Assembly (NCBI RefSeq): GCF_022829685.1
Contig: NZ_JAKSYE010000064.1
Coordinates: forward strand, 186,001-250,000
Length of the DNA: 64,000 nt
Source: Methylobacterium sp. E-045
GTDB lineage: Bacteria; Pseudomonadota; Alphaproteobacteria; Rhizobiales; Beijerinckiaceae
Direction: 5' to 3'
Positions 46,895 to 64,000 of the stretch are shown piece by piece. Position numbers and translations under genes: made by a program. The notes below the pieces were generated by a model that was not told the origin of the DNA, ran no database searches, and saw nothing but the letters and a program-made list of their open reading frames with translations. Positions within the stretch are counted from its first letter, which is position 1; every line of letters begins with the position of its first letter.

Positions 46895-47875
46895 TCACCC
46901 ATAGCCCGGCGTGGCCTCCGCCCGCCGCCGAATGGCCGAGGCGATGGCATCCAGGCGCTCTGCACCGACGAAGGTGCGGACGGCCAGGAAGTACGTCTCC
47001 TCGCCGAGGGGCAGGTAATCGAGCTCGAACCGCTCCGCCACGGCGCGGGTCCCCATTCCCACATCGGCGGCCCCCGATGCGATCATGGCCGCCACGGCCT
47101 GATGCGTGAACTCCTCCGTCTCGTAGCCGCGTATCTCCGACCCGCCGATGCCGGCCTCGGCGCAGAGCCGGTCGAACCAGATCCGCGTCCCCGCGCCAAG
47201 TTGACGGTTGACGAAGCGGATACCGCCCCTGGTCAGGTCCGTGATGCCGGACACGGCGAAGGGATTGCCCCGCTCCAGCATCAGGCCCTGCTCGCGCCGC
47301 AGGACCGGGCGTGTGAGGAGGGCCGGGTCGGCGAGGATGTCGGCGAAGACGGAGCCCGGATCGGGCCTGGCCGCGCCGAAATGGAACCCCGCCCCTTCCG
47401 CCCGGCCGGCCTTCAGATGCGAGAGGGCGTCCATGCTCCCCGCGATGGTGACCGCAATGCCGCCCATCTCGCGCAGGGCGTCGAGCAGGACGGAATCGTG
47501 GCTGACCGCGAGGGTCAGGGGGCCTGCGGCGCCTCCGACCAGACCGGCGAGCGTCGCCTCCAACCGCCGCTCTTCTCGCGCGATGACCTCTACGCTCGCC
47601 CGCGATGCGTCGCCCAGCGCCCGATGGAACGCGGCTCCGAAGGCCGTCAGAACGGTGCCGTGCCCCTTGGTCTTGCGGATGACGGGCTGGCCGAGCGCCG
47701 CTTCGAGGATCTGAAACCGTCCCCAGGCGGAGCGATAGGACAGGTCGAGCCGCGCCGCGGCGCCCCTCAGCGAACCTTCCGCGGCCAAAGCCTCCAGAAG
47801 CACCAGGGTCGGGGCGAAGGCGAGGGGCCGGTCCGCCGCCGCAATGGTCCCGTCCAGCGTCAATCCGACCTTCAT
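46895..47875 (-). CDS. ModE-like regulator with binding-protein domain
   Basis: The 326-residue product has an N-terminal winged HTH of the ModE/LysR-like type (residues 20-90: G-S-L-R-G-A-A-A-R-L-D-L-S-Y-R-S-A-W) and a C-terminal periplasmic-binding-protein-like domain (PBP_like) with R-Q-L-G-A-G-T-R-I-W-F-D and G-A-A-D-V-G-M-G. It is divergent from the tungstate transporter genes, 75 bp apart, so it most likely senses tungstate, molybdate or a cofactor form and controls them. A nearly symmetrical repeat overlaps its own start codon, which would allow autorepression. The HTH also recalls regulators of molybdate genes with fused ligand domains. Confidence 0.85.
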   Translation of the reverse strand: MKVGLTLDGTIAAADRPLAFAPTLVLLEALAAEGSLRGAAARLDLSYRSAWGRFQILEAALGQPVIRKTKGHGTVLTAFGAAFHRALGDASRASVEVIAREERRLEATLAGLVGGAAGPLTLAVSHDSVLLDALREMGGIAVTIAGSMDALSHLKAGRAEGAGFHFGAARPDPGSVFADILADPALLTRPVLRREQGLMLERGNPFAVSGITDLTRGGIRFVNRQLGAGTRIWFDRLCAEAGIGGSEIRGYETEEFTHQAVAAMIASGAADVGMGTRAVAERFELDYLPLGEETYFLAVRTFVGAERLDAIASAIRRRAEATPGYG

Positions 47876-47893
47876 AGGCAATCCGTTTCCTAT
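47874..47893. promoter_or_regulatory. Inverted repeat at the regulator start, candidate operator
   Basis: ATAGGCAA-TCCG-TTTCCTAT: 8-bp arms with one mismatch, overlapping the start codon of the ModE-like gene and lying 58 bp before tupB. It is the only clear symmetry in the divergent promoter region and is well placed to be that regulator's own binding site. Confidence 0.5.
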
Positions 47894-47950
47894 TGAACTG
47901 GCGCAGAGAGCGGTAGCATGAGGTAGGCAGCCGCGCACAGCACCGGAGCC

Positions 47951-48646
47951 ATGCTTCAGACCCTCGAGGAGACGTTCCAGCGGATCGCCGCCCTCGATCC
48001 GGAGGTGATCGCCATCGCCGGCCTGTCGTTGCGGGTGAGCCTGTCGGCGGTGGGGATCGGAACCCTCGTCGGCGCGCCCCTCGGGGCCCTCGTCGCCGTG
48101 TCGGCGTTTCCGGGGCGAAGGCTGGTCGTGGGATGCCTCAACGCGGCGATGGGCCTGCCGCCGGTGGTCATCGGCCTCGTCCTCTACCTCATCCTGTCGC
48201 GGTCCGGCCCCCTCGGCAGCCTCGGCCTGCTGTTCACGCCGGGCGCGATGATCGCGGCCCAGACGGTTCTCGTGGTCCCGCTCATCGCCGCCCTCGCACG
48301 CCAGATCGTCGCCGATGCGGCGGAGCATCTTGGCGAGCAGCTTCGCTCCCTCGGCCTCGGACCCGCCCGGCGGGCCGCGATCCTGATCTACGATACGCGC
48401 TTCTCCCTGGTGACGGCGGTCCTCGCCGCGTTCGGCCGCGCCATCTCGGAGATCGGGGCCGTCCTCGTCGTCGGCGGCAATATCGACGGGCACACCCGCA
48501 CCATGACGACGGCGATCTCCCTGGAGACGCAGAAGGGAGACCTGCCCCTCGCTTTGGCCCTCGGACTCGTCCTCATCGCCATCGTCCTCGTCGTCAGCGC
48601 CACCGCCTCGCTGCTGCGCTCCTATGCCATGCGGGCCTACGGATGA
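47951..48646 (+). CDS. tupB: Tungstate ABC transporter permease
   Basis: Inner-membrane permease of 231 residues with five probable helices. It matches TupB-type permeases: S-L-R-V-S-L-S-A-V near the start, G-L-P-P-V-V-I-G-L-V in the middle, and the ATPase-contact loop R-S-L-G-L-G-P-A-R-R-A near residue 135, followed by G-R-A-I-S-E-I-G-A-V. The stop overlaps the tupC ATG (ATGA). Family members move tungstate with the TupA binding protein; specificity for tungsten over molybdenum is inferred from the family. Confidence 0.88.
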   Translation: MLQTLEETFQRIAALDPEVIAIAGLSLRVSLSAVGIGTLVGAPLGALVAVSAFPGRRLVVGCLNAAMGLPPVVIGLVLYLILSRSGPLGSLGLLFTPGAMIAAQTVLVVPLIAALARQIVADAAEHLGEQLRSLGLGPARRAAILIYDTRFSLVTAVLAAFGRAISEIGAVLVVGGNIDGHTRTMTTAISLETQKGDLPLALALGLVLIAIVLVVSATASLLRSYAMRAYG

Positions 48647-49374
48647 GCGCGGCGCTTCCCATCGTCATCGACGGACTGCGCTACCGGGTGGGAGACCTCC
48701 CGATCCTCAAGGGCGTCGACATGTCGGTGACGTCGGCCGGCATCACGGCGATCATCGGTGCAAACGGCGCCGGGAAGAGCGTACTCCTGCGCCTCATCGA
48801 CGGGTTGCTGGCGCCGACGGGCGGGACGATCAGCATCGGCCCATCGGCCGCTAACCGTCCGAGCACCGCCTTCGTGTTCCAGCGGCCCGGACTCGTCCGT
48901 GCGAGTGCGGCCGCCAACGTGGCGCTGGCCCTGGCGCCGCTCGGCCTCGGCGCGGGAGAGCGGGCGGAGAGGGTGCGGGCGGCACTCCAGCATGTCGGGC
49001 TCGCCGAGCGGGCCGGCGCTCCGGCCACCCGCCTGTCTGGGGGCGAGCAACAGCGCCTCGCCATGGCACGGGCCTGGGCGCGGGCGCCCGATCTCCTCCT
49101 TCTCGACGAGCCCACCGCCAATCTCGATCCGGCCTCGTCCCACGTCATCGAGGACCTCGTGGCTTCGATGGCGAAGGCCGGCACGAAGGTCGTCCTGGTC
49201 TCGCACAATCTCGGTCAGGTCATGCGTCTGGCCGAGGATGTGGTCGTCCTCGCCGGGGGGCTCGCCGTCGAGCACGGACCCGTGCGCACCACCCTGTCAT
49301 CCCCCCGTTCGCCGCAGGCGCGGGCTTATCTCACCGGAGAAATGCCATGGACCTCCTTCGCCGCTCTTTCCTGA
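48643..49374 (+). CDS. tupC: Tungstate ABC transporter ATPase
   Basis: Nucleotide-binding subunit of 243 residues. Walker A is G-A-N-G-A-G-K-S, signature L-S-G-G-E-Q-Q-R, Walker B L-L-L-L-D-E-P-T-A-N-L-D, switch H in V-S-H-N-L. It overlaps tupB by four bases and its 3' end overlaps the tupA start by 28 bases, so all three tup genes are tightly coupled. The frame open upstream is a shadow within tupB. Confidence 0.9.
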   Translation: MSAALPIVIDGLRYRVGDLPILKGVDMSVTSAGITAIIGANGAGKSVLLRLIDGLLAPTGGTISIGPSAANRPSTAFVFQRPGLVRASAAANVALALAPLGLGAGERAERVRAALQHVGLAERAGAPATRLSGGEQQRLAMARAWARAPDLLLLDEPTANLDPASSHVIEDLVASMAKAGTKVVLVSHNLGQVMRLAEDVVVLAGGLAVEHGPVRTTLSSPRSPQARAYLTGEMPWTSFAALS

Positions 49375-50183
49375 GCCTCGGCCTTCTCGTCGCGGTCTCC
49401 GGACTGTCGTCCTTACCGGGTGTCGCCGAACCCGCCGAGAGCATCACGGTGGCCTCCACCACGTCCACCGAGCAATCCGGCCTGTTCAAGGACTTACTAC
49501 CCAAATTCACGCAAGCCAGCGGGATCGGTGTGAAGGTGGTGGCTCTGGGCACCGGGCAGGCCCTCGATGCCGCCCGGCGCGGAGACGCCGACGTCGCCCT
49601 CGTCCACGACACCGCCGCCGAGGAAAAATTCGTCGGCGAGGGGTGGAGCACGAAGCGCTATCCGGTGATGTACAACGACTTCGTCCTCATCGGACCGAAA
49701 GACGATCCGGCCGGTGCGGCCGGCTCCAGCATCATCGAGGCCCTGCGCAAGATCGCCGCCGCCAAGGCGCCCTTCGTCTCGCGCGGCGATCGCTCGGGCA
49801 CCCACAGCGCCGAGTTGCGCTACTGGAAGGAGGCCGGTCTCGATCTCGGCGCCGTGCGCGGCGATTGGTACAAGGATGTGGGCCAGGGGATGGGCCCGGC
49901 GCTCAACACCGCCTCGGCCGCCAATGCCTATCTGCTCAGCGACCGGGGTACCTGGCTGTCGTTCAAGAACCGGGGCGACCTCAAGATCCTGGTGGAGGGC
50001 GACAAGCGCCTCTTCAACCAATACGGCGTGATGCTCGTGAACCCCGAGAAACATCCGCATGTGAAGGCGAAGGCGGGTCAGGCCTTCGTGGACTGGCTCG
50101 TTTCGAGCCCGGGTCAGGCGGCCATCGCCGCCTACCGGATCGGGGGAGAGCAGCTCTTCTTCCCCAATGCGGAGGCTCAATGA
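49347..50183 (+). CDS. tupA: Tungstate ABC transporter substrate-binding protein
   Basis: Periplasmic binding protein of 278 residues. The signal peptide ends near G-V-A-E-P-A-E. The mature protein opens I-T-V-A-S-T-T-S-T-E-Q-S-G-L, which matches the T-T-S oxyanion motif of TupA/WtpA-type proteins, and continues with A-L-V-H-D-T-A-A-E and S-R-G-D-R-S-G-T-H. A ggag site lies inside the end of tupC. Gene order B-C-A differs from the common A-B-C. Tungstate affinity is a family inference. Confidence 0.92.
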   Translation: MDLLRRSFLSLGLLVAVSGLSSLPGVAEPAESITVASTTSTEQSGLFKDLLPKFTQASGIGVKVVALGTGQALDAARRGDADVALVHDTAAEEKFVGEGWSTKRYPVMYNDFVLIGPKDDPAGAAGSSIIEALRKIAAAKAPFVSRGDRSGTHSAELRYWKEAGLDLGAVRGDWYKDVGQGMGPALNTASAANAYLLSDRGTWLSFKNRGDLKILVEGDKRLFNQYGVMLVNPEKHPHVKAKAGQAFVDWLVSSPGQAAIAAYRIGGEQLFFPNAEAQ

Positions 50184-50303
50184 CGGACGGTCCCCGACGA
50201 AACAGCGCGCCGCGCCGCCCTTGACACCTCTCGCCTGCCGCGCACCTTCCTTGGTCAATCGCGCCGTCGCAGCTGCGGCGGCTGGCCTCGGGAGGGCCGT
50301 GTC

Positions 50304-50888: not shown

Positions 50889-50906
50889 GTCCGATCTCCT
50901 ATCGAC

Positions 50907-50944: not shown

Positions 50945-50955
50945 TTGCACCCACC

Positions 50956-51657
50956 TCACCGGCGGCTCTGATCGGCGATCGGCTCGGGCGGCGCGATCGC
51001 CCGTTTCCAGATGAAGGCCACGGCGACGACGAGCACGGCGCAGATCGAGGCGGCGGCCCGGTGCGCGTGGGGCACGGAGGCCACGTGTTCGGCGACGTAG
51101 GGATCGGTGACGATCATCTCGCCGGCGATCCAGCCGAGGAGCGCGGCGCCTGCCCAGACGACCAGGGGAAACCGTTTCAGCAGCGTCGTGATGAGGGAGG
51201 CGCCCGCCACGATGAGCGGGATCGACAGGAGCAGGCCGAAGACGAATAGCGAGACCTCGCCCTTCGCGACGGCGGCGATGGCGACCACGTTGTCGAGGCT
51301 CATGACGGCGTCGGCGATGGCGATGGTCCGCACCGCCTTCCACAGGGTCTTGCTGGCTCCGACCGCGTGGCCTTCCTCGTCCTCGCCGAGGGCGAGCTTC
51401 ACCGCAATCCAGAGCAGCAGGAGCCCGCCGCCGATCCGCAGGAACGGCACCGCCAGCAGATAGGTGATGACGACGGCGAACAGGATGCGAAGCCCCACCG
51501 CCGTTCCCGCGCCGAGGAGGATGCCAGTGCGGCGCTGCTCGGGGGGCAGGGATCGGCAGGCCATGGCGATGACGACCGCGTTGTCGCCGGAGAGAAGCAG
51601 GTCGATCCAGACGATCTGCAGCACCGAGACGAGAAAATGCGAGTCGAGAAAGTCCAT
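50956..51657 (-). CDS. TerC family integral membrane protein
   Basis: The 233-residue product has about seven hydrophobic segments and the two TerC motifs: S-G-D-N-A-V-V-I-A-M near residue 23 and M-S-L-D-N-V-V-A-I-A near residue 120. Relatives are linked to metal-ion export, especially manganese (Mn2+), and to tellurite resistance. Here it lies between the tup genes and the moe genes on the minus strand. No known manganese riboswitch was recognised in its leader. A link to tungsten/molybdenum is only positional. Confidence 0.87.
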   Translation of the reverse strand: MDFLDSHFLVSVLQIVWIDLLLSGDNAVVIAMACRSLPPEQRRTGILLGAGTAVGLRILFAVVITYLLAVPFLRIGGGLLLLWIAVKLALGEDEEGHAVGASKTLWKAVRTIAIADAVMSLDNVVAIAAVAKGEVSLFVFGLLLSIPLIVAGASLITTLLKRFPLVVWAGAALLGWIAGEMIVTDPYVAEHVASVPHAHRAAASICAVLVVAVAFIWKRAIAPPEPIADQSRR

Positions 51658-51811: not shown

Positions 51812-53068
51812 CTATCGGTACAGCACGACGTGAGGGTAAACCTCGATCGTGTCGCCGGGCTCGATCGCGGTGACCTCGTCGTGGAGCGCCGCCAGCCCGT
51901 CGCTGCCCGTGAGCGAGGTGAGGAGGCCGGCCCCGTCCCGGGGGAACTTTACCGCCTCCAAGCCGCCATCGCCCGAGCGTCTCAGGCTGACGCGCACGAA
52001 TTCGCGGCGGCCGGCCTTCTTGCGGTAGGTGAAGGAGGAGCGGACCGGGATGGCGAGAGGTGCTTCCGGACGCTCGCCGCCGAGACGCGCCAGCAGGGGG
52101 CGCACCACGAAGAGCAGGGTCACATAGGCGGCCACGGGATTGCCCGGCAGCCCGACGAAGGGTGTGCCCCGCACGACGCCCATCGCCACGGGCCGGCCCG
52201 GCTTGATGCCGAGACGCCAGAACACCAGGCTGCCCACGCTCTCCACCGCCGGCTTCACATGGTCCTCCTCGCCGGTGGAGACGCCGCCGGAGGTGAGGAG
52301 GAGATCGTGGGCGGACGCGGCCTCCGCGAGGCGCGCTGCGAGAACCGCCCGGTCGTCGCGCAGGATCCCGAGGTCGCTCACCTCCGCGCCGAGGCGCTTC
52401 AGCAGGGCGACCAGCATCACCCGGTTAGAATCGTGGATCGCCCCCGGCGCCAGGACGGCGCCCGGTTCGGCCAGTTCATTTCCTGTGGAGAACACCGCCA
52501 CCCTCAGGCGGCGGCGGACGGCCAGGGACGAGCGGCCGGTGGCGGCGGCCAAGGCCACGTCCTGCGGCGCCAAGCGACGCCCGGCGGTGACGATGACGCC
52601 GCTCTCGGGTACATCCTCGCCGGCGAGCCGGCGGTTCGCCCCGCGCTTCAGGCCCGGCGGCAGGACGATGTCCGCCCCCTCCACCGTCACGTCCTCCTGC
52701 ATGAAGACCGTGTCGGCGCCGTCCGGCATCCGCGCGCCGGTGAAGATGCGGACCGCGCTCGGCCCGCTCCCCAACGTCCGGCCGGCCTGACCGGCAGCGA
52801 TCCGACCTTCGACGATCATCCGCGTCTCGCCCGACGGGGCGAGGTCGGCATGGCGCACGGCGTAGCCGTCCACCGCCGAATTGTCGAAGGGCGGCAGGTC
52901 GATCCCGGCGGTCACGTCCTCCGCCGCGACGCGTCCGTCCGCCTCGCATAGCGGCACGTCGTCGATCCCGGCGAGGACGGGAAGCCGCTCCGCGATCAGC
53001 GCGAGGGCGTCGTCCACGCTCATGAGCTGCCCGCCGAAGGCGAAGCAATCGTCAGTCAGCTGCGCCAT
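51812..53068 (-). CDS. moeA: Molybdopterin molybdenumtransferase MoeA
   Basis: Inserts metal into adenylylated molybdopterin. The 418-residue product is a standard MoeA: P-P-F-D-N-S-A-V-D-G-Y-A near residue 60, the T-G-N-E-L domain III motif near residue 195 and S-G-G-V-S-T-G-E-E-D. The C-terminal beta domain is present. Its start overlaps mobB by 17 bases, so both are translated together. One of three MoeA-like genes in this block; this is the one with all canonical motifs. Confidence 0.95.
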   Translation of the reverse strand: MAQLTDDCFAFGGQLMSVDDALALIAERLPVLAGIDDVPLCEADGRVAAEDVTAGIDLPPFDNSAVDGYAVRHADLAPSGETRMIVEGRIAAGQAGRTLGSGPSAVRIFTGARMPDGADTVFMQEDVTVEGADIVLPPGLKRGANRRLAGEDVPESGVIVTAGRRLAPQDVALAAATGRSSLAVRRRLRVAVFSTGNELAEPGAVLAPGAIHDSNRVMLVALLKRLGAEVSDLGILRDDRAVLAARLAEAASAHDLLLTSGGVSTGEEDHVKPAVESVGSLVFWRLGIKPGRPVAMGVVRGTPFVGLPGNPVAAYVTLLFVVRPLLARLGGERPEAPLAIPVRSSFTYRKKAGRREFVRVSLRRSGDGGLEAVKFPRDGAGLLTSLTGSDGLAALHDEVTAIEPGDTIEVYPHVVLYR

Positions 53069-53606
53069 GGCCTTCGATCCTGTTCAGGACTGTATCCACC
53101 GGTTCGGCCAGGGACGCGACGAGATCGGCGATGGCCGCCACGTCGTCGAGATCGACCACGGGAATCCCCGCATCGGGAAACGAACCGTCGCTGGCGATGG
53201 CGACGATGCCCCGGTCCTGCGGGTGGAGGGGAGAGCGGCCGTTGGCGTCCCGATGCACTTCGAGCTTGGGATGGCCGTCGCGCTTGAACCCCTCAACGAG
53301 CACGAGATCGCAGGGGCTCAGACGACGCAGAAGGTCGGCGAGGCTGGCCTCCTCGCCGTCGCGCACCTCGTGCATCTGCACCCACCGGACCGCCGACGAG
53401 ATCAGCACTTCCGACGCGCCCGCCTGCCGATGGCGATACGAATCCTTGCCCGGCTGATCCACGTCGAAGGCGTGATGCGCGTGCTTGATGGTCGAGACCG
53501 TCAGTCCGCGGGCGGTCAGCGCGGGGATGAGCTTGGCGAGGAGCGTGGTCTTGCCCGCTCCGCTCCACCCGGCCAAACCGATCACCCGCATCGCATGCTC
53601 CGTCAT
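53052..53606 (-). CDS. mobB: Molybdopterin-guanine dinucleotide biosynthesis adapter MobB
   Basis: GTP-binding protein that assists attachment of GMP to the molybdopterin cofactor. The 184-residue product has a P-loop G-W-S-G-A-G-K-T-T-L near residue 12 and the family motifs K-H-A-H-H-x-F-D-V-D and D-L-V-L-V-E-G-F-K. It overlaps moeA at its 3' end and the MoeA-fusion gene by an ATGA at its 5' end. The guanylyltransferase MobA is not in the window. A bis-MGD cofactor is what formate dehydrogenase uses, so MobB fits the inferred role of the island. Confidence 0.93.
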   Translation of the reverse strand: MTEHAMRVIGLAGWSGAGKTTLLAKLIPALTARGLTVSTIKHAHHAFDVDQPGKDSYRHRQAGASEVLISSAVRWVQMHEVRDGEEASLADLLRRLSPCDLVLVEGFKRDGHPKLEVHRDANGRSPLHPQDRGIVAIASDGSFPDAGIPVVDLDDVAAIADLVASLAEPVDTVLNRIEGHGAAD

Positions 53607-55597
53607 GGCTGGGTCCGCGCGAGGGGAAAGCCGAGCTCGGCCAGGGCCGAGCCGGTCTCGGGCTCTCCGAGGAGGGAGAGGAAGGCGGCCAGAGCCGGTT
53701 CCAGCGCCCGGTCGCCGGCATAGGCGAAATCGTAGCGCTCGTCCGTCAGCGCCAGGAATCCGAGGCCGTAGGCGCGGGCGACGCTCTCGATGGCGACGCC
53801 CCAATCCGCCCGGCCCTGCGCCACGGCGGCGGCGACGGCATTGTGCGAGCGGGGCTGGTTCCAGAACCCCGGCGGCCGGGCTCCATCGAGCACCCCGTCG
53901 ATGAGGAGCCGCGTCCCCGAGCCGGTGTTGCGGTTCACCATGATGGCGTCCGGGTCGCGGACGAGGGACGAGACCGCCTCCGCCGCATCCCGCCCCGCGA
54001 ACCGGGCATCGCCGGGGCGAAACACCACGCCCTGCATCCGCCGCCAGCCCTCGGCGAGGCGCAAGGCCGGCGTGAGGAAGGGCGTGTTGTAGCGGCCGGT
54101 CTCCGGATCGAGGAGATGCATCGCGGCGACGTCGCATTCGCCCCGCTTGAGGGAGGCGAGGCCCCCCGAGGACCCGACCCAGATGGTGCGGGCGGTAATC
54201 CCGCGCTCGGCCAGGCGTCCGACGACGGCGTCGAGGCCGATGCAATGGCTGCCCACGATGGTGAGGTCGGGCGCGCGGGTGCCGGCCCCGATCCGCGAGA
54301 GACTCACCCGCTCGCCGGCCTCCATCCCCGCCCTGGCGGCGGGGATCGCGAAGAAGCCGTCGGCCTGGGAGAAGGCCGTCACCGAGCCGGAGCCCTTGGA
54401 GAGCGGGACCGCGACGGGAGCGTCGCGCCCATGGGTGAGCGAGGCCATGACGAACTCCATCCGTCCTCGCTCGGAGGCGATGCGCTGGGGCAGCGAAGCC
54501 TCGACGCTGTCCTCCTCCCGTGGGGGAAGCCCGGCGAGCGACCGGACGAGGGGCACCACGAATTCGTGGAAGGTGAACATCGCCGAGGTCGGGAAGCCCG
54601 GCAGCACCACGATGGCCTTGCCCTGCGCCTTGGCGAGGCAGAGGGGCTTGCCCGGTTTGAGGGCGACCCCGTGGACGAGGATGCCGGGCTCGCCGAGGCG
54701 CGAGAGAATGCGGTGCGAGACGTCGCCCGCCCCCTTCGAGGTGCCGCCCGACAGGACGACGACGTCGCACTCCGAGAGCGCGGCGCGGATCGCGGCCTCG
54801 AGCGCCCCCTCGTCATCGGCGACGATGCCGAACGGCACGGGCTCGCCGCCATTCTCGGCGACCGAAGCGGCGACGATGGCTCCGTTGGAATCATAGATGC
54901 CGGCGGGCGGCAGGGGCCGGCCCGGAGCCGCCAGTTCGTCGCCGGTGGAGAGTACGGCGATCCTCGGCCGGCGTACCGTTCCCACCTCGGCGAGGCCGCA
55001 GGCGGCGAGCATGCCGATCTCCCGCGCCGTGATCACGGTGCCCTTGCGCAGGACGGTCTCGCCGCGCGCCATGTCGGAGCCGGCATAACCGATGAACTGC
55101 CCCGGCGCGGCCGCCCGGTCGAGATCGATGGCGAGCGGACCGTCGCCGGACGCGATCCCGGTGGCCTCCACCATCACCACCGCGTCGGCGCCGCGCGGCA
55201 TCACGCCGCCGGTGGCGATGGCCGTCGCCGTGCCGGACAGGACGACGAGACGGGGCGCGACGCCGCAGGCGAGGATCTCGTGATTGAGACCGAGCCGGCG
55301 CGGCTCGGCCTGGCTCGCACCCATCGTGTCGGCAGCGCGGAGGGCGAAACCATCGACGAGGGCGCGGTCGAAGGGCGGTACGTCGATGGGCGAGGCGACG
55401 TCGCCCGCCAGGGCGCGGCCGAGGCAGGCGGCCAGCGGCACGGTCTCCGGCGGCAGCGCGATGTGCGGGATCGCCGCACGAAACCGAGAGACGGCCTCGT
55501 CGCGGCTGACCACCTGGAGGAACTGCTCCTGACGGGCCGCACGCGACAGCCTCGCCAGGAAATCCTCTCTCGTCTCAACTCCGTCGGGTCGGCTCAC
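53603..55597 (-). CDS. MoeA / binding-protein domain fusion
   Basis: The 664-residue product joins a MoeA part (residues 1-440) to a PBP_like C-terminal domain (about 450-650). The MoeA part has P-P-F-D-R-A-L-V-D-G-F-A near residue 75 (usual N-S-A replaced by R-A-L), S-T-G-D-E-L near 225 and S-G-G-T-S-K-G-A-G-D near 290. The C-terminal domain shows N-R-N-T-G-S-G-T-R-L-L-I-D, like the ligand domain of the ModE-like regulator at 46895. Such fusions may sense or deliver the oxyanion during cofactor insertion; function is inferred. The GTG at 55597 overlaps the upstream stop; a GTG at 55618 is the alternative. Confidence 0.85.
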   Translation of the reverse strand: MSRPDGVETREDFLARLSRAARQEQFLQVVSRDEAVSRFRAAIPHIALPPETVPLAACLGRALAGDVASPIDVPPFDRALVDGFALRAADTMGASQAEPRRLGLNHEILACGVAPRLVVLSGTATAIATGGVMPRGADAVVMVEATGIASGDGPLAIDLDRAAAPGQFIGYAGSDMARGETVLRKGTVITAREIGMLAACGLAEVGTVRRPRIAVLSTGDELAAPGRPLPPAGIYDSNGAIVAASVAENGGEPVPFGIVADDEGALEAAIRAALSECDVVVLSGGTSKGAGDVSHRILSRLGEPGILVHGVALKPGKPLCLAKAQGKAIVVLPGFPTSAMFTFHEFVVPLVRSLAGLPPREEDSVEASLPQRIASERGRMEFVMASLTHGRDAPVAVPLSKGSGSVTAFSQADGFFAIPAARAGMEAGERVSLSRIGAGTRAPDLTIVGSHCIGLDAVVGRLAERGITARTIWVGSSGGLASLKRGECDVAAMHLLDPETGRYNTPFLTPALRLAEGWRRMQGVVFRPGDARFAGRDAAEAVSSLVRDPDAIMVNRNTGSGTRLLIDGVLDGARPPGFWNQPRSHNAVAAAVAQGRADWGVAIESVARAYGLGFLALTDERYDFAYAGDRALEPALAAFLSLLGEPETGSALAELGFPLARTQP

Positions 55598-56700: not shown

Positions 56701-56819
56701 CGCGGCCCGGTGGGCAACCCCGCCCGTGACGGATCAGCCGAGGGGTGGCTGGCGGGGCAGACAGAGGGCCTCGCCCCGGCTAATTCCAAACGTCCTTGGC
56801 TATCCAGGAGAGCGACGGC

Positions 56820-58160
56820 GTGGCGCAGACATCCGGGTTGTCCGTTCGACCTCGATTCTCCCGCTTGACGGGGCGTCATGCCCGGTCGATCTGCGCGGTG
56901 CTTCTCCTTCTCTCCACGTCCCTTCCGGCCTCGGCGCAGTTGCGCGGGCATGGCGGCCCGGTCCGGGCTCTCGCCATCGCGGCCGACGGACGCATGGCGA
57001 TCTCCGGCGGGTTCGATCACTCGGCCATCCTCTGGGGAATAGACCAGGGTGCGGCCCTGGCGATCCTGCGATTCCACGATGGCGCGGTGAATGCCGTCGC
57101 CGCCCTCGACGAGGGCCGCTTCGTCACGGCCAGCGAGGACGGGCGCATCGCCCTGTGGCAGGGGGGGCGCCCGGAGCCGGTGGAGGTCTTTTCCGACCAT
57201 TCGGGGCCGATCGCGGCCCTCGCGGTCTCGGCGGATGGAACGCGCCTCGCCTCCGCATCCTGGGACGGAACCGCCCATATCCGATCCCTTGCCGGTGGAC
57301 CGGTGCGGGTGCTGCGGGGCCATGCCGGCAACGTCAACGCCGTCGCCTTTCTCGCCGATGGCAGGCCCGTGACGGGAGGCTACGACGCCACGCTTCGGGT
57401 CTGGCCGCTGGCCGAGACCGCCGAGCCGCCGCGCATCGTTCAACTGCCGTCACCGATCAACGCCGTGGCCGTGACGCAGGACGGCGAGATCGCCGCCGCC
57501 GGGGCGGACAGCGTGGTGCGCTTCCTCTCCGCCGACGGGACCATCCGCGCGTCGGTCGATCTCGCGACCAACCCCGTCATCGGCCTTGCCGTGTCGCCGG
57601 ACGGGAGACGGGTGGCCGCCGCCACGGTGGCCGGCACCGTGGCCCTGATCGATCGAAGCGCTGCCAAGGTGGCGTTCAGCCTCGTCGGACCCGGACTTCC
57701 GGTCTGGTCCCTCGCCTTCCGGCCGGACGGGAGCGAATTGCTCACCGGAGGTGGAGACAGGCTGGTGCGCCGCTGGGATGCCAGGACCGGCGAGCCGATC
57801 GGGCCGCTGTCGATGGCGCGGCCGGTGGATGCGCTGGCCGCCTACAAGGGCGATCACGGGGCCGAAGTCTTTCGTGCCTGCGTGGCCTGCCACACCCTGA
57901 CGCCGGAGGAGGGCAACCGTGCCGGCCCCACCCTGAGCGGGGTATTCGGCCGCCGCATCGCCACCGCCGACGGCTACAAGTTCTCGCAGGCCCTGAAGGA
58001 CCTCGACATCGTCTGGGATGCGCGGACCATCTCGAAACTGTTCGAGGTCGGCCCGTCCCGCTACACCCCCGGCACCAAGATGCCCGAGCAGACGATCAAC
58101 GACCCGGCCGACCGCGAGGCGTTGGTGCGCTTCCTCGAAAGAGCGACGAAGACGCAGTGA
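56820..58160 (+). CDS. WD40-repeat / cytochrome c fusion protein
   Basis: The 446-residue product has a signal peptide (ending P-A-S-A-Q near residue 41), a seven-bladed WD40-like propeller (about 45-345, blades ending in sequences such as S-A-I-L-W and A-T-L-R-V-W) and a C-terminal class I cytochrome c domain: haem site C-V-A-C-H near residue 360 and a distal Met in T-K-M-P-E-Q. It is therefore a periplasmic electron carrier with a protein-binding platform. The GTG at 56820 has an aggag site; a TTG at 56796 is possible. It is divergent from the moe run and convergent with the ferredoxin gene. A partner dehydrogenase is inferred. Confidence 0.87.
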   Translation: MAQTSGLSVRPRFSRLTGRHARSICAVLLLLSTSLPASAQLRGHGGPVRALAIAADGRMAISGGFDHSAILWGIDQGAALAILRFHDGAVNAVAALDEGRFVTASEDGRIALWQGGRPEPVEVFSDHSGPIAALAVSADGTRLASASWDGTAHIRSLAGGPVRVLRGHAGNVNAVAFLADGRPVTGGYDATLRVWPLAETAEPPRIVQLPSPINAVAVTQDGEIAAAGADSVVRFLSADGTIRASVDLATNPVIGLAVSPDGRRVAAATVAGTVALIDRSAAKVAFSLVGPGLPVWSLAFRPDGSELLTGGGDRLVRRWDARTGEPIGPLSMARPVDALAAYKGDHGAEVFRACVACHTLTPEEGNRAGPTLSGVFGRRIATADGYKFSQALKDLDIVWDARTISKLFEVGPSRYTPGTKMPEQTINDPADREALVRFLERATKTQ

Positions 58161-58171
58161 TCCACGGCGGA

Positions 58172-60214
58172 TCAGGCTTTGCCGGTCCCGCCCGTCTCCC
58201 GCGCCCGAAAATAATCCTCGGAGGTTCGCGGCTTCGACCGCTCGGGCACCGTGTGCGGGTCGAAGGCCTCGTTGACGACCACCTCGACGCGGCAGGTGTC
58301 GCACATCATCAGGGTGCGGATTCGGGCCTCGCCGGCGCTGCCCTTGAACATCCAGTGGCGGCCCTGAAGCTTTTCGATGACCCGCTCGATGCTGCTGCGC
58401 GTGCCGAAGGGCTTGCCGCATGACACGCACTCGAACGGCTCCTCCTCCTTGACGATGCGGCGCGGCTGGCTCCAGGCGGCGAAATCCACCTGCGGCTTCA
58501 GGGTGATCACATCCTCCGGGCAGGTGGCGGCGCAGAGCCCGCATTGCACGCAGAGGCTTTCCTCGAAGGCCAGCAGCGGCCGGTCCTGGCTGTCGCTGAG
58601 GGCGTGGGTCGGGCAGGTGCCGACGCAGGCGAGGCACAGAGTGCAAGCCTCGCTGCGGAAATCGAGGCCGCCGAAGGGCGATCCGGCCTCCAGCGGGACC
58701 AATGCGACGGGGGCCGGGGCGGCGACATGCATCTCGCGGAAGGCGAAGTGCAGCACGTTGCGTTTGGGACCCACCGGCATGAAGGCGGCGGGAACCGGAG
58801 CGGGGGTGCCGAGGCTGCCGGACGACAGGGCGGACCCGAGCTGATCCGGATCGTCGGTCTCGATCAGGGAGACCACGGGCGTTCCGTCGGCGGACCCGTA
58901 GCCCAATGCCCCGGCGAGCGTGTCGGCGAGGAGCACCATCCTGCGCAAGGGTGCGATATCGTGCTTGGGACGGTCGCGGACGAGGAGGCGGATCCCCACG
59001 GCGCCGTAGGCGAGCAGTGCCGCGGCGGCCTCCGGTCCAAGCTGCGTAACCTCGTTGACCGCGACCGGAAGAACGTTGGCCGGCAGGCCGTCGCCGTAGC
59101 GGGCCAGCGCCTCGATCAGGGGCCCGCCATGCTCCTCGTCGTGGAACAGCACGATTCCGTCCCGTCCCCCGGCCTCGTGATAGGCGAGCATCAAGGTGCG
59201 CAGCCGCCGCATCAGCGCATCGGCCGCGGGCAAGGCATAGGCGGCCGCCCCTGTGGGGCAGACGGAGGCGCAGGATCCGCAGCCGGCGCAGATGTAAGGG
59301 TCGATGGCGACGTGATCGCCGGCGGGCGCGATGGCCCCGGTCGGGCAGACATCGAGGCAGCGCGTACAGCCGGTGATGCGCGAGCGCGAATGGGCGCAGA
59401 GATCGGCCTGGAAATCGACGAAGCGCGCCTTCTCGAACTCGCCCACGAGATGGGAGATCGTGAAGATCGCCCGCTCCACGGCGGCCGGGTCGCGGGGATC
59501 GGCGCGGACATAGCCGCTGCGCAGGTCGTGCGCGGGAAACAGCGGCATCCCCCCCGTCAGGTCGAGGACCACGTCGCAGGTGGAGGTGGCGCCGTTGCGC
59601 GACGGGCCGAAGGAGAGGGACTGGCGGGAGGACGGGCTCGGCACCGCGTAATCGTCGATGCGCAGGGAGAACGCCCCGAGATGCCCGCTGGCCGATACGA
59701 CACTCCCCTGGAGCACGGGAAAGTCGTGTCGGCGCGGCACCGGCACGTCGCGCGGCCGGCTCAGCAGCACCGTCACGTCGAGATGGTCGGCGAGGCGCCG
59801 CCCGGCCTCGATGGCCACTTCGTCGCTCCCATAGATCAGGGCGACGCCTTGGCTCACCATCGCGACGGTGCCCGGCGCGGGAGACATCTCCGCCGCAGCG
59901 GCGAGGAGGGCCGCGATCTTCGGCCCGGCCGCGTCGGCCTCCTTCGACCAGCCGGCCGTCTCGCGGATGTTGGCAAAGGTCACGCGGGTCTTCGCCCCGG
60001 CCCCGGCGGCGATGTCGGTGAAGAGGGGGGCCTGGAGCGTGCACGAGACGGTGATGGGCGCACCCTGCGCCAGGGCGTCCTCGAACCGGGCGATCTCGCG
60101 CCCGCACAACTGATCGGCGGTCTCCAGGCGGCCGCCGCATGCCTTTCCGATCACCTGCCCGTCGAGGGCGACGGTCTCATCGCAGGAGCAGGCGAACACG
60201 ATCCGGTCGGACAC
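58172..60214 (-). CDS. Multi-cluster 4Fe-4S ferredoxin-domain protein
   Basis: The 680-residue cytosolic product has an N-terminal region with several Cys, then two ferredoxin modules at about residues 283-320 (C-T-R-C-L-D-V-C-P and C-A-G-C-G-S-C-A-S-V-C-P), a middle non-Fe-S domain and two more modules at about 535-585 (C-T-L-C-L-A-C-V-G-T-C-P and C-V-Q-C-G-L-C-A-A-T-C-P). Near the C-terminus are two further C-x2-C pairs, F-E-C-V-S-C-G-K and M-C-D-T-C, likely a zinc or rubredoxin-like site. I know similar proteins near formate dehydrogenase genes. A GTG start at 60214 is chosen from the family opening S-D-R-I-V. Confidence 0.83.
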   Translation of the reverse strand: MSDRIVFACSCDETVALDGQVIGKACGGRLETADQLCGREIARFEDALAQGAPITVSCTLQAPLFTDIAAGAGAKTRVTFANIRETAGWSKEADAAGPKIAALLAAAAEMSPAPGTVAMVSQGVALIYGSDEVAIEAGRRLADHLDVTVLLSRPRDVPVPRRHDFPVLQGSVVSASGHLGAFSLRIDDYAVPSPSSRQSLSFGPSRNGATSTCDVVLDLTGGMPLFPAHDLRSGYVRADPRDPAAVERAIFTISHLVGEFEKARFVDFQADLCAHSRSRITGCTRCLDVCPTGAIAPAGDHVAIDPYICAGCGSCASVCPTGAAAYALPAADALMRRLRTLMLAYHEAGGRDGIVLFHDEEHGGPLIEALARYGDGLPANVLPVAVNEVTQLGPEAAAALLAYGAVGIRLLVRDRPKHDIAPLRRMVLLADTLAGALGYGSADGTPVVSLIETDDPDQLGSALSSGSLGTPAPVPAAFMPVGPKRNVLHFAFREMHVAAPAPVALVPLEAGSPFGGLDFRSEACTLCLACVGTCPTHALSDSQDRPLLAFEESLCVQCGLCAATCPEDVITLKPQVDFAAWSQPRRIVKEEEPFECVSCGKPFGTRSSIERVIEKLQGRHWMFKGSAGEARIRTLMMCDTCRVEVVVNEAFDPHTVPERSKPRTSEDYFRARETGGTGKA

Positions 60215-60342
60215 AGATTTACCCTGAACGTTTGGTCGCAGCGCCGAAGGGGCCGGCCCTCTCGCACGCAAGTTGGTGCATCGTATACTATAATGGCTCG
60301 AAACTAGGACACGCCATACGGGCGCAGGTAGAACCGAAACGC
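60215..60342. promoter_or_regulatory. Divergent promoter region of the ferredoxin and ligase-like genes
   Basis: Between two divergent starts lies an AT-rich island in GC-rich surroundings: ATCGTATACTATAAT at 60280-60294. It contains a perfect -10 hexamer TATAAT (60289-60294) for the plus strand and the palindrome GTATAC. The ATCGTATA part recalls the half-site of a molybdate-regulator box, but the symmetry is poor. Confidence 0.4.
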
Positions 60343-61080
60343 ATGGCGCCGAGCCCCGACCACCCGGACCTGATCCTGCCGCCCGTCTTCTCCCTCATGG
60401 TTACGAGCGGGCCAGAGAACGCGTTCGACGAAGCCTGCGCGGTCGCCGCCTCCGGTGACGCCACCGGGCGTCTCGTTTGGCGTCGAAGCGCAGAGGTGTT
60501 CGATCTCGCCGTCATCCTTGAGCCGGACGAGCCCCTCGCCCGGGCGCGCCGCGCCTTCTTTGCCGGCATGGTGGCGCTGGCCGACGCCATCGGTGCCCAT
60601 GGGCCGCCCGAGATCCCGGTTACGTTCGACTGGCCCGACACCGTCCGTTTCGACGGCGCGCGCCTCGGCGGCGGGCGTCTCGGATGGCCGCCGGCCTGCG
60701 GCGAGGACGAGGTGCCGGACTGGTTGGTCTTCTCTGCGACGGTCATCGCCTCGAAGGCGCGGGCCGGCGATCCCGGCCTGACGCCGGATTCGACGTCCCT
60801 GGAGAACGAAGGGTTCAATGTCGAGGACGGTCACGGCCCCCTCGTCGAGAGCTTCGCCCGGCATCTGATGAAAGCGTTCGCCGTCTGGGACGAGGACGGG
60901 TTCGCGGGGATCGAACGGCGCTATCTCCGGCGCCTCGCCGATGGCGGTCCGTCGGCTCGGATGGGGCGGATCGACGCGAATGGCGATCTCCTCGCCGATG
61001 GCGGTGAAAGACACCCTCTCGTGGCGGTCCTGACGGGGGTCGCATGGCGCGATCCGCATACGGGTGAGCCGCGCCTGTGA
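60343..61080 (+). CDS. Biotin/lipoate--protein ligase-like protein
   Basis: The 245-residue product belongs to a BPL/LplA/LipB-like family with a C-terminal DUF4444-type domain (conserved W-D-E-D-G-F near residue 185). The fold binds biotin, lipoate or a related carboxylate, but it lacks the usual G-R-G-R-x-G biotin ligase motif in this stretch, so activity is unknown. It is the first gene of a tightly overlapping operon. Its TGA overlaps the GTG of the porin gene. Context with cofactor genes suggests modification or handling of a cofactor on a metalloenzyme. Confidence 0.72.
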   Translation: MAPSPDHPDLILPPVFSLMVTSGPENAFDEACAVAASGDATGRLVWRRSAEVFDLAVILEPDEPLARARRAFFAGMVALADAIGAHGPPEIPVTFDWPDTVRFDGARLGGGRLGWPPACGEDEVPDWLVFSATVIASKARAGDPGLTPDSTSLENEGFNVEDGHGPLVESFARHLMKAFAVWDEDGFAGIERRYLRRLADGGPSARMGRIDANGDLLADGGERHPLVAVLTGVAWRDPHTGEPRL

Positions 61081-62372
61081 CCGTATCGGCGAACACCCGC
61101 ACCGCCCTCATCGTCGCGCTCGCGGCCTCCCTGTTCCTGCCGGTCGGGCTTCGGGCCGAGGATGCGCCGAGGGGCGCGGCCATCGAGGCCAAGGGCATGC
61201 CCGGCCCCTATGGCGAACAGCTCACCATCGACGACAAGGGCATCACCCTGACCTTTCCCGATGAGTCCGTGAAACTGCGCATCGGCGGCCGTCTTCACCT
61301 CGATTTCGGTGCGGCCGGCATCCGCCAATCGGGTTTCGGCGATCCGTTCAGCGACACGATCGCCGTTCGCCGCTCCTGGATCGAGACGACGTTGGGCCTC
61401 GGCAAGGATGTCGGGATCGGTTTCCAGTACGATTTCGCCGATCCGGTGACCCCAATCAACGATGCGGTCCTCGTCTATCGCGGCGTGCCGGACATGCTCT
61501 TCAGTATCGGCAACGAGAAGGAGCCGTTCGGTCTCGATCAACTCGCCTCGAACAACAACATCCTCTTCACCGAGCGAGCCTTGTCCGACGCGTTCGTGCC
61601 GGCCCGAAACTTCGGTTTCGCCGTCGGGGGGCACGGGAAGGACTGGAGCATCGTCACCGGAGTTTTCGGCGGCAACGCCAATACCGGCATCGGCACCGAA
61701 GGCATCGCCTCGACGAGCCGCGTCACCTACGCTCCGATCAACGACGACAACCGGACCCTGCATGTCGGTCTCGCCGGGAGCTACCGCGGCCTGCCCCGCG
61801 ACGAGAGCCCGCTCTCGCTGTCCAGTCGGTCGGAAGCGTTCCTGTTTACGAGAAGCTTCGTCGATACTGGAGACATCCGCGATGCCGCCAGCATCGCCCG
61901 CCTCGGCGCCGAACTGGCCTACCGCTCCGGCCCGCTGCTGGTGAGTGCCGAATACACGCGGACTGAGATCGGTCGCTTCGACGGTGCTAAGCCGCTGAGT
62001 TTCCAGGGCGGGTACGTCCAGGCGAGTTGGGTGCTGAACGGCGACAACCGGGCCTATCGCATGGCTCCCGACTTCAACGGAACGAGTTACGCCGTCTTCG
62101 GCGGCGTCAAGGTCGCCGAGGCCCAGCGCATCACCCGAGGCGGCTTCGGCGTGTTCGAGCTCGGCCTGCGGTTCTCGGCCATCGATCTCGACGATGGCGG
62201 CATACGCGGCGGCATCGAACGGGACGGCACCGTGGGACTATCGTGGTATCCTGACACCAACATCCGCATCATGGCCGATTACGTCCGGTCCCATACGTCA
62301 CCCTCGGCTCTTCAGAACGGCCGGACCATCGATGCCGATACGTTCATCGGCCGTTTCCAACTGTACTGGTGA
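61077..62372 (+). CDS. OprP/OprO-type porin
   Basis: The 431-residue outer-membrane protein has a signal peptide ending L-R-A-E-D near residue 27 and a phosphate-selective porin (OprP/OprO) fold: an early R-L-H-L-D-F-G and R-R-S-W-I-E-T, a long beta-barrel with many alternating hydrophobic residues and a C-terminal F-Q-L-Y-W. The GTG start overlaps the previous stop. Relatives are anion-selective channels, so uptake of tungstate, molybdate, phosphate or formate is plausible here; specificity is not readable. Confidence 0.87.
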   Translation: MTVSANTRTALIVALAASLFLPVGLRAEDAPRGAAIEAKGMPGPYGEQLTIDDKGITLTFPDESVKLRIGGRLHLDFGAAGIRQSGFGDPFSDTIAVRRSWIETTLGLGKDVGIGFQYDFADPVTPINDAVLVYRGVPDMLFSIGNEKEPFGLDQLASNNNILFTERALSDAFVPARNFGFAVGGHGKDWSIVTGVFGGNANTGIGTEGIASTSRVTYAPINDDNRTLHVGLAGSYRGLPRDESPLSLSSRSEAFLFTRSFVDTGDIRDAASIARLGAELAYRSGPLLVSAEYTRTEIGRFDGAKPLSFQGGYVQASWVLNGDNRAYRMAPDFNGTSYAVFGGVKVAEAQRITRGGFGVFELGLRFSAIDLDDGGIRGGIERDGTVGLSWYPDTNIRIMADYVRSHTSPSALQNGRTIDADTFIGRFQLYW

Positions 62373-62505
62373 ACCCGTGTCGTCCTTGTCCGCGAGCAAT
62401 CGCGGTCGCCCCGCACCAGATACCGGCCTTGAAAGCCGCGATCATCGCCGTCATCCGGAACGCGAGTCCGGCGAGCGGCGACAGGATGGGTCCTCGGAAT
62501 CGTCG

Positions 62506-63084
62506 ATGAGCAGTCTCAAACTTCCACGGACCCTTCGCCTCGACCCTTCGGACACCTTCGTCTTCGCGCAGGCTGCCGAGCCCGGTGAATGGGCGGTGAC
62601 CGGGTCGTTTCTGTTCTGGGATGCCGACGTTCCGCTGCTCCAGGGCAAGGAGCGGACGGCGTTCCGCTCCGGGTTCCTCGGGGTGACGTCCCTGGGATTC
62701 TCGACCCTGGTCGTCGTGAGCGAGGCGACACCGACCGAGCGGGACGCGGCGGTGGAGGATCTGGCACGTCATCTCTGCGAGCGCCTCGGCGCCCCGAGCC
62801 TCGACGTGGCCCGCGTCGCGGCGGCGGAGGAGATCGAGTTTGCCGGCTCCCTGTGCCAGCCTGCCATCGGCAGCGTGATCGCTCTGCACAGGACCTTCGA
62901 GGACGGGGAGATCCGGGAGGCGTTCCGCACCCTGCACCAGCGCGGGCTGGGTGTGGCGGGGGCGGACAAGCTTCATGCCCACGCCAGGGCCTTCACCTTC
63001 GTCGAGAGCGATGATGAGCCCGAGGAGCGGGCGGACCTCATCGGCCTGGCGACGGCACCGGGATCGAAAGGCGAAGCACGATGA
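62506..63084 (+). CDS. DUF6505-type protein of unknown function
   Basis: The 192-residue soluble product starts M-S-S-L-K-L-P-R-T-L-R-L-D-P-S-D and resembles a family I recall as DUF6505, found next to formate-dehydrogenase accessory genes. Recognisable words are G-E-W-A-V-(T/S)-G, R-(S/A)-G-F-L-G and H-R-T-F-E-D-G-E-I-R-E-A-F-R-T-L. No catalytic motif is evident. It starts 133 bases past the porin gene and its stop overlaps the next ATG (ATGA). The DUF number is from memory. Confidence 0.7.
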   Translation: MSSLKLPRTLRLDPSDTFVFAQAAEPGEWAVTGSFLFWDADVPLLQGKERTAFRSGFLGVTSLGFSTLVVVSEATPTERDAAVEDLARHLCERLGAPSLDVARVAAAEEIEFAGSLCQPAIGSVIALHRTFEDGEIREAFRTLHQRGLGVAGADKLHAHARAFTFVESDDEPEERADLIGLATAPGSKGEAR

Positions 63085-64000
63085 CCGAGTTCTGGGTCTC
63101 CAGCGGCCACCATCTTGCCGGGCGGACCGAGGGGGGCGGCCTCGCGGTCACCGACGAACTCATCCTCGCCTATCTCGCCAGGCCGGAATTGGTGCCGCCC
63201 GACGAGGCCTGCATGGCCGAGCGGGCGCTCCACCGCAGCCTCGTGAGCGCACCGCGCCGGCCGGTCTCCCCCGGAGAGATCGCCGCCATGGCGGATGGCG
63301 ATGCGCGCGAGAACTGGACGATGATGCTCGCCTTCCGCGACCGACTGACGGCCGCGCGCTCCGTGGAGGCCGCCTATCTCGATCTCGTTCGCAGGGGCCT
63401 GAACGGGACGCCGCCGATCTTCCTCAGCCAGTTGGCTCATCTCATCCTGCGCAATGCCCTCGATGGCTGCGACGATCCCTACACCCTTCGCGCGGGTGAG
63501 CTCTTCTTCCGGCCTCAGCGCGTGTCCTTCGTCGATGGCGCCGCCCTGCTGGCCGATGCCGAGGTGATCGAGGCGCGGGAGACCGGGGCCGCGCAATCGC
63601 CCCTCGTCGCCATGCTCGGCAAGGAGGCCGCGAACGAACTCGACGTGCTCACGGACGAGACCGCCTGGACCTATTGGAGCCGCTCCGACGCCTTCACCAT
63701 GGCGCTCAACCTCGGGAGCAACCCGAAGAGCCGCGACGGACTCGCCCGCGCCATCGAGGCCTGGATCCGCCACCTCCTGCACGTGCAGGCGACGGTGGAG
63801 CCGATCGCGTCCATGGACGATCCGGATTGGCGCTGGTTCGTCGGGCTCGACGCGCAGGCGACCCGGATCGGCAACGCCCTATGGAACGGCGAGTCCCTGG
63901 ACGAGACGAGCCGCATGCGCATCCTGGCCCTGTTCCGCCTGACCTTCGCCGATGACCGGCGGATCGACCCGCGCGCGGCCGGCCGGCCGGTCTATCTCCT
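63081..64000 (+). CDS. DUF6352-type protein, cut by the window end
   Basis: The frame is open from ATG at 63081 to the last base, giving at least 306 residues. It starts M-T-E-F-W-V-S-S-G-H-H-L and continues with V-T-D-E-L-I-L-A-Y-L-A-R-P-E-L and D-D-P-D-W-R-W-F-V-G-L-D, which I recall from a family called DUF6352 that accompanies the DUF6505 protein. No enzyme motif is visible; it looks all-helical and soluble. The four-base overlap with the preceding gene indicates co-translation. The family label is from memory. Confidence 0.7.
   Translation, partial: MTEFWVSSGHHLAGRTEGGGLAVTDELILAYLARPELVPPDEACMAERALHRSLVSAPRRPVSPGEIAAMADGDARENWTMMLAFRDRLTAARSVEAAYLDLVRRGLNGTPPIFLSQLAHLILRNALDGCDDPYTLRAGELFFRPQRVSFVDGAALLADAEVIEARETGAAQSPLVAMLGKEAANELDVLTDETAWTYWSRSDAFTMALNLGSNPKSRDGLARAIEAWIRHLLHVQATVEPIASMDDPDWRWFVGLDAQATRIGNALWNGESLDETSRMRILALFRLTFADDRRIDPRAAGRPVYL

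Follow-up and report, generated by a model that had tools for sequence, protein, structure and literature searches.

Described systems and the locus in Methylobacterium

The closest described counterpart of the locus examined here is the gene cluster META1p3047-3050 of M. extorquens AM1 (MoeA5, MoeA3, MobB and MoeA1, with tupBCA). In M. extorquens, the tungsten formate dehydrogenase (FDH) FDH1 requires MoeA1 and MobB, whereas the FDH activity of molybdenum-grown cells needs MoeA2 instead, and two MoeA1 residues, R291 and A312, bias the insertase to tungsten (PMC13197769; this and the other papers cited are represented by excerpts). We analysed a 17-kb block at the right-hand end of a 64,000-nucleotide stretch, hereafter the window, from the 5.58-Mb genome of Methylobacterium sp. 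E-045 (G000:C97:186001-250000, where G, C and L numbers are our labels for genomes, contigs and loci). The block carries the same four genes in the same order, as judged by locus numbers only. The client studied in M. extorquens is FDH1, and FDH3 is unnamed in the excerpted text (PMC13197769), whereas here FDH3 is adjacent and FDH1 was not found. We find that FDH3 is probably a tungsten-dependent, periplasmic, cytochrome-linked formate dehydrogenase, and that the block would form its metal-to-enzyme unit, equipped with maturation proteins of its own.

E. coli formate dehydrogenase N (FdnGHI), a molybdenum- and selenocysteine-containing enzyme, resembles the enzyme at this locus in that the gamma subunit (FdhC) aligns to FdnI (1kqf_C), including four histidines that we take to be haem ligands; it differs in that the beta subunit here has only 198 aa and a WD40-cytochrome c protein is added. 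FDH3 of Methylobacterium and Methylorubrum has been described as periplasmic (PMC12180729) and cytochrome-linked, with metals stated only for Fdh1 and Fdh2 (PMC6520949). The locus resembles it in an FDH3_beta equivalog match over cut-off, alpha and gamma subunits, a twin-arginine translocation (Tat) target and a TorD-like gene; the excerpts of both papers give no metal for FDH3, and here at least six accessory families track it. In dmsD/TorD-fdhGHI operons, DUF3305 and DUF3306 likewise lie upstream of a Tat target and fdh genes, and 4Fe-4S genes are listed, whereas DUF6505, DUF6352, the ligase-like protein, WD40-cytochrome c and tungsten are not named in the excerpt (PMC4464133). For PBP-MoeA fusions, channelling has been proposed and co-occurrence with TupA reported, with no tie to FDH3 in the excerpted text (PMC11733289); we observe the same co-occurrence, all 27 genomes with a MoeA-PBP fusion carrying TupA.

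A survey predicted tungsten FDHs in strict anaerobes only (PMC6147048), and M. extorquens FDH1 is regarded as unusual among FDHs for its tungsten (PMC13396061). Our literature searches found no paper on DUF6505 or DUF6352, none combining periplasmic formate dehydrogenase, tungsten and Alphaproteobacteria, and none combining formate dehydrogenase, WD40, cytochrome c and Alphaproteobacteria. Additionally, no metal assignment for FDH3 was found in the literature searched, and the original 2004 and 2007 enzyme papers may state one. The module has already been published in M. extorquens for FDH1; within the literature searched, the tungsten assignment of FDH3 appears to be new.

FDH3 and its accessory genes

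The 17 kb are two units meeting: an FDH3 unit, and a tungsten module composed of the helix-turn-helix (HTH)-PBP regulator, tupBCA and moeA1-mobB-moeA3-moeA5. Domain and family profile searches located every gene named in a first-pass annotation of the window at roughly the position it had given, and added a TerC-family gene that it had omitted. The features are as follows:

46895-47875, minus strand: regulator, LysR-type HTH fused to PBP_like (PF12727 165 bits, HTH_1 35 bits)
47951-48646, plus strand: tupB, tungstate ABC permease (PF00528), overlapping tupC
48643-49374, plus strand: tupC, ATPase (ABC_tran)
49347-50183, plus strand: tupA, putative tungstate-binding protein (NF041772 207 bits, cut-off 400)
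50956-51657, minus strand: TerC-family membrane protein, lying in the tupA-moeA1 gap (PF03741)
51812-53068, minus strand: moeA1, putative tungsten-type metal insertase (MoeA domains; K289/R292/A313)
53052-53606, minus strand: mobB (TIGR00176 166 bits, cut-off 76.2)
53603-55618, minus strand: moeA3, MoeA fused to PBP_like (NF011068 767 bits, cut-off 534)
55594-56700, minus strand: moeA5, short MoeA-like protein (MoeA_N, MoCF, MoeA_C)
56796-58160, plus strand: WD40 propeller fused to cytochrome c (WD40, Cytochrom_C)
58172-60271, minus strand: 4Fe-4S protein (Fer4 domains)
about 60343-61080, plus strand: BPL/LplA-like (ligase-like) protein (PF16917 202 bits; 3bfm 79 bits)
61077-62372, plus strand: Porin_O_P porin (PF07396 165 bits)
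62506-63084, plus strand: DUF6505 (PF20115 187 bits)
63081-64000, plus strand, running on to 64091 past the window edge: DUF6352 (PF19879 198 bits)

The first-pass annotation had placed the enzyme served outside the window and had proposed looking right of position 64000 for an FDH alpha subunit, DUF3305 and DUF3306, and all three are found directly there. On the same strand, 3' of DUF6352, follow DUF3305, DUF3306, a TorD-like gene, the Tat target and the alpha, beta and gamma subunits of FDH3; DUF6352, DUF3305 and DUF3306 are joined by 4-base overlaps, and the alpha gene begins 2.3 kb past the window edge. The scored products are:

Tat-target peptide, after the TorD-like gene (TIGR02811 57.1 bits, cut-off 48.45)
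FDH alpha, 980 aa (PF00384, PF04879, PF01568; Molybdopterin and 4Fe4S domains)
FDH3 beta, 198 aa (NF038355 equivalog 341.6 bits, cut-off 240)
FDH gamma (FdhC), cytochrome b556 kind (TIGR01583 158.7 bits, cut-off 115.85)

The alpha subunit carries the Tat motif RRAFLRNS, read by eye in the sequence. Because the FDH3 genes directly continue the DUF6352 operon, the enzyme served is most likely FDH3. There is no support for FDH1 as this genome's client: a search with an MeFDH1-like protein gave no FDH1 match in it at E 1e-170. A second FDH alpha lies on the same contig (G000:C97:55339-57282, L012); it scores 583 bits to 7vw6, the tungsten enzyme, and 1473 bits each to 9wxb and 6tg9. A MoeB homologue (L004:14326-15102, minus strand) directly follows the FDH3 genes, a position seen only here and in the sister genome G117 (L072) among the gene orders of the order-sample stretches.

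We next consider the distribution of these genes in a fixed set of 199 genomes from one order and in 157 related stretches. The latter consist of 77 order-sample stretches, extending for at most 20 kb about FDH3, accessory or MoeA-PBP markers, and 80 named loci, the best 80 of 570 DUF6352 matches, which are biased to DUF6352 and repeat some sample genomes; counts use the stretches of at least 17 kb with an FDH3 beta gene (54 order-sample, 59 named). FDH3 beta over cut-off occurs in 72 of the 199 genomes, the 4Fe-4S protein in 77, DUF6505 in 64, DUF6352 in 63 and the strong PF16917 group (E below 1e-45) in 73. Of the 72 FDH3 genomes, 71 also carry the 4Fe-4S protein (Fisher p 1.4e-45), 69 the ligase-like protein, 60 DUF6505 and 59 DUF6352, leaving one, three, 12 and 13 FDH3 genomes, respectively, without that partner; the association of the accessory genes with FDH3 has p below 1e-31. 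Conversely, DUF6505, DUF6352 and the ligase-like protein each occur without FDH3 over cut-off in four genomes (G018, G057, G072, G161), and the 4Fe-4S protein in six. As the four named genomes have FdhB and/or FdhC matches near contig ends, assembly breaks account for at least part of the partner-only genomes. Two FDH3 beta genes over cut-off were observed in G171 (C97:277818, C97:564621) and in G129 (C39:330077, C30:90087).

Within the 54 core sample stretches, the ligase-like protein and WD40-cytochrome c are each present in 52, the 4Fe-4S protein and DUF3305 in 50, DUF6352 in 45, DUF6505 in 44 and DUF3306 in 39; the short Tat peptide has a BLAST match in 17, and WD40-cytochrome c is absent from 9 of the 59 named stretches as well as from 2 of the 54. 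The genes commonly run TorD-(Tat)-FdhA-FdhB-FdhC-WD40cytc-ligase-like-DUF6505-DUF6352, and DUF3305-DUF3306 and the 4Fe-4S gene are divergently oriented; the accessory genes also recur with FDH3 in rearranged orders in many genera. FDH3, WD40-cytochrome c, the 4Fe-4S protein, the ligase-like protein, DUF6505, DUF6352, DUF3305 and DUF3306 are near-obligate partners that make up the FDH3 unit. Chance neighbourhood of unrelated genes can hardly explain the block: the porin and the TerC-family gene demonstrate that unrelated genes are able to sit in it, and chance holds for the porin and perhaps for TerC, but for the core genes it is refuted by the strength of the association and the recurrence in rearranged orders across genera.

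The 4Fe-4S protein has an N-terminal CxC..C..C, two 2[4Fe-4S] domains and a C-terminal CxxC..CxxC, with cysteines conserved in at least 98% of 59 sequences; we place it provisionally in the cytosol, having noticed no export signal by eye. In G102:C68:88003-89109, a match to the 4Fe-4S protein falls within an open reading frame 24402 residues long, perhaps an N run or another assembly artefact. Biotin/lipoate protein ligases use a catalytic lysine, and in the ligase-like protein none of the 21 columns that are at least 90% conserved (61 sequences) is a Lys; its reading as an active ligase was dropped for want of a conserved lysine, and the PF16917 protein is probably not a ligase. A single CxxCH is present in 64 of the 66 WD40-cytochrome c frames recovered, the remaining two being cut fragments; the protein is probably secreted, its signal peptide having been judged by eye, and could provide electrons with an additional way out. 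For DUF3305, there is a match to the DUF3305 portion of a MobA-DUF3305 model (69.5 bits, cut-off 820), which points to the bis-molybdopterin guanine dinucleotide (bis-MGD) step. For the DUF6505 and DUF6352 models (pLDDT 83.5 and 90.4), Foldseek returned no solved-fold match at E 0.001 or better, which does not imply new folds, and the best VIA-align Z scores were 2.7 and 4.2, respectively, over short stretches. The first-pass annotation had taken the block for a complete metal-to-enzyme pathway, a description that fails, since mobA, fdhD and early molybdenum cofactor genes are not among the genes of the block and the supposed ligase has no conserved lysine.

The metal of FDH3

The same annotation had left the enzyme as a tungsten or molybdenum formate dehydrogenase; its identity as a formate dehydrogenase stands, but the two metals can be separated, and tungsten is favoured over molybdenum because of the TupA and ModA distribution and the MoeA1 residues. 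With a threshold of E 1e-40, the TupA model (NF041772) matches 102 of the 199 genomes. TupA is present in 72/72 FDH3 genomes versus 30/127 others (40/40 versus 20/59 by genus), whereas ModA, the control transporter, is present in 54/72 versus 105/127 (p = 0.20); stratified by family, the association with FDH3 has p = 1.5e-9 for TupA and p = 0.56 for ModA. Grouped by transporter, FDH3 occurs in 18/24 Tup-only, 54/78 Tup-and-Mod, 0/81 Mod-only and 0/16 genomes with neither.

The distribution also holds when FDH1 is removed as a cause, for which we searched with a protein matching MeFDH1 (7vw6) at 1301 bits. TupA is found in 53/53 genomes with both FDH3 and FDH1, 19/19 with FDH3 and no FDH1 match, 20/22 with FDH1 and no FDH3 (the two without a TupA match being G083 and G153), and 10/105 with neither. 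For instance, the window's genome and its congeners G117 and G196 have FDH3 and TupA and no FDH1 match; congener G174 has no match to FDH3, TupA or FDH1 and keeps ModA. Among the ten TupA genomes without FDH1 and FDH3, three have an aldehyde oxidoreductase (AOR) beside the module; the remaining seven are G007, G014, G022, G057, G123, G141 and G180, of which G180 has a weak AOR-like match (33.5%).

Upon examining the insertase, we observe that the window's MoeA1 carries K289, R292 and A313 at the positions linked to tungsten selectivity in M. extorquens MoeA1, R292 and A313 corresponding to R291 and A312. Counting MoeA1 rows at 45% identity or more, K-R-A is found in 34/34 readable MoeA1 (31 different sequences, as some genomes were read twice) from stretches with FDH3 beta, where three further MoeA1 are unreadable at these positions and two are partial, and in 13/13 readable MoeA1 from stretches without FDH3 beta (including the window's own gene), where one is partial. 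Rows below 45% comprise 12 K-K-S, all from stretches with MoeA-PBP and without MoeA1, and two K-R-A. As controls we used 20 hand-picked TupA-negative genomes with the best-listed MoeA match of each; R and A are both present in 2/20, one of these also having K. Other MoeA copies in the window's genome read R-K-A and R-K-S, and MoeA3 reads K-K-S. Furthermore, 10 of 12 additional MoeA genes read K-R-A, the other two being distant second copies with R-K-S. Across the genomes with FDH3 and no FDH1 match, 16/19 have K-R-A; for G173 only an R-K-S copy was read, and G089 and G114 fall outside the reading.

It is unlikely that FDH3 instead uses molybdenum or either metal, with TupBCA scavenging both oxyanions and the linkage reflecting general molybdenum and tungsten supply. 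The 18 FDH3 genomes that have TupA and no ModA match are compatible with it if Tup imports molybdate too, other M. extorquens FDHs function with molybdenum, and the TupA matches lie under the model's cut-off; it is opposed by the lack of FDH3 in all 81 ModA-only genomes, by the tungsten-type MoeA1 in every readable FDH3 stretch, with second MoeA copies reading R-K-S in two FDH3 genomes, and by the solved proteins nearest to TupA, which bind tungstate. The best solved relative of the window's TupA is 3lr1, titled tungstate-binding (232 bits), followed by 5my5 (217 bits), which we take to be TupA.

The neighbours of the module bear on whether it serves FDH1 or AOR, its proximity to FDH3 being merely a shared one-carbon (C1) island, which we consider quite improbable. 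A module gene (any of MoeA1, MoeA3, MoeA5 or TupA) lies beside FDH3 in 20/54 sample and 37/59 named stretches, for example in Methylobacterium, Hansschlegelia, Mesorhizobium, Chelativorans and Aurantimonas. The contiguity described in the first pass is recovered in part of the relatives, but as two units, of which the module also occurs by FDH1 or AOR. The MoeA-PBP fusion is found in 27/199 genomes, 21 of them with FDH3, and lies within 20 kb of FDH3 in only 12. In five genomes (G035, G112, G143, G171, G194) the distance from the fusion to FDH1 is 11.6-15.6 kb and FDH3 is about 3 Mb off or on another contig, and in G167 the module adjoins an MeFDH1-type FDH. In G027, which has MoeA-PBP and no FDH3, the module adjoins AOR, as it does in G137 and G165, whose module stretches contain AOR at 86-87% identity; the module-linked AOR is nearest to 8c0z, a tungsten-containing AOR. 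The module stretches of G123 and G155 (MoeA-PBP, no FDH3) yielded no identified client. In G059, a single 16-kb stretch (L048) holds an AOR (70.5% to the L178 AOR) as well as FDH3 accessory genes, a MoeA of the tungsten type and tup genes, and there the module could serve FDH3 or AOR. These neighbourhoods would suit a client other than FDH3, but 19 FDH3 genomes, the window's included, have no FDH1 match and TupA in all, AOR being unsearched in the window's genome.

Several observations weigh against a tungsten-dependent FDH3 served by this block. Every TupA match is under the curated 400-bit cut-off, which none of the 199 genomes reaches. All counts come from one order, in which genomes are related and some incomplete, so that an absent FDH1 may be missed; another tungsten enzyme is possible in the window's genome, where no AOR search was made. 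TupA lies within 25 kb of FDH3 beta in 30/72 genomes, and the module does not adjoin FDH3 in Methylorubrum L100-L102 (aminovorans, thiocyanatum, podarium) or in the named Bradyrhizobium stretches. Additionally, in M. extorquens the FDH activity of molybdenum-grown cells is independent of MoeA1 and MobB, FDH3 not being separated in the excerpted work, and MoeA3 and MoeA5 are dispensable for FDH1 (PMC13197769). Tungsten in FDH3 is most likely, on phylogenetic and residue evidence.

In the scheme that we favour, with tungsten as the metal of FDH3, the HTH-PBP regulator would sense tungstate and control tupBCA, TupBCA would import tungstate, as its family suggests, and MoeA1 with MobB would insert tungsten into molybdopterin, as similarity and both selectivity residues lead us to expect; MoeA3 and MoeA5 are putative helpers, possibly FDH3-specific. 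In the cytosol, DUF3305, DUF3306, DUF6352, DUF6505, the ligase-like, 4Fe-4S and TorD-like proteins may carry out loading and checking of the alpha subunit ahead of its Tat export, as co-occurrence and operon order suggest. In the periplasm, FDH3 would oxidise formate and pass electrons via FdhB to a di-haem FdhC, and WD40-cytochrome c would probably also accept FDH3 electrons. A bolder version, which we offer tentatively and regard as possible rather than probable, is that FDH3 depends strictly on tungsten and occurs widely among aerobic Alphaproteobacteria. In that version the ligase-like and 4Fe-4S proteins, DUF6505, DUF6352, DUF3305 and DUF3306 would form an undescribed machine that selects and inserts tungsten-loaded bis-MGD before Tat export, MoeA3 and MoeA5 would be an FDH3-specific insertase and its partner, and WD40-cytochrome c would be a fourth subunit. 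If FDH3 is a tungsten enzyme, about one third of the sampled genomes (72/199) carry an exported tungsten-dependent formate dehydrogenase, which is of relevance for how soil and plant bacteria turn over formate and for CO2/formate conversion enzymes. The orphan insertase paralogues MoeA3 and MoeA5 gain a testable client, and six uncharacterised families are short-listed as maturation factors of one enzyme.

Porin, TerC, regulator and MoeA paralogues

Uptake across both membranes, proposed in the first pass, is not a conserved trait. The Porin_O_P porin occurs in 1/157 related stretches, that of the sister genome G117 (1/77 order-sample, 0/80 named), which rules it out as a conserved tungstate or formate entry gate; it is a lineage-specific insertion and not a conserved pathway member. 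The TerC-family protein is probably not part of the system, with 0 matches in the 157 related stretches, few of which span the tupA-moeA1 gap, or in 15 module-stretch gene orders.

MoeA5 keeps E198 in 1/44 rows and K289 in 1/44 (numbering of the window's MoeA1; residues common to MoeA1 and MoeA3), and retains several MoeA aspartates, for example D67 in 43/44 rows; we take these residues, shared aspartates included, to be catalytic. Because E198 and K289 are lost, MoeA5 is probably a partner and not an enzyme. A simple motif pattern for MoeA5 was dropped, as the loop was detected in only 29/47 MoeA1 and PGRP was present in 18/44 MoeA5 rows.

The regulator had been described as a ModE-like sensor, and it reaches 33.3 bits with the ModE repressor model TIGR00637, against a cut-off of 98.5; a LysR-type HTH fused to PF12727 is the better description. 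Its gene and tupB are divergent, as they are in 10 named loci. No promoter palindrome was common to the regulator-tupB gaps, the best occurring in 4 regions, where our own gap was entered twice alongside the 10 named loci and start sites were roughly estimated. Finally, the regulator has a PBP_like domain in common with the end of MoeA3 (BLASTP E 6e-15), which suggests that one oxyanion-binding module is used both for sensing and for feeding the insertase.

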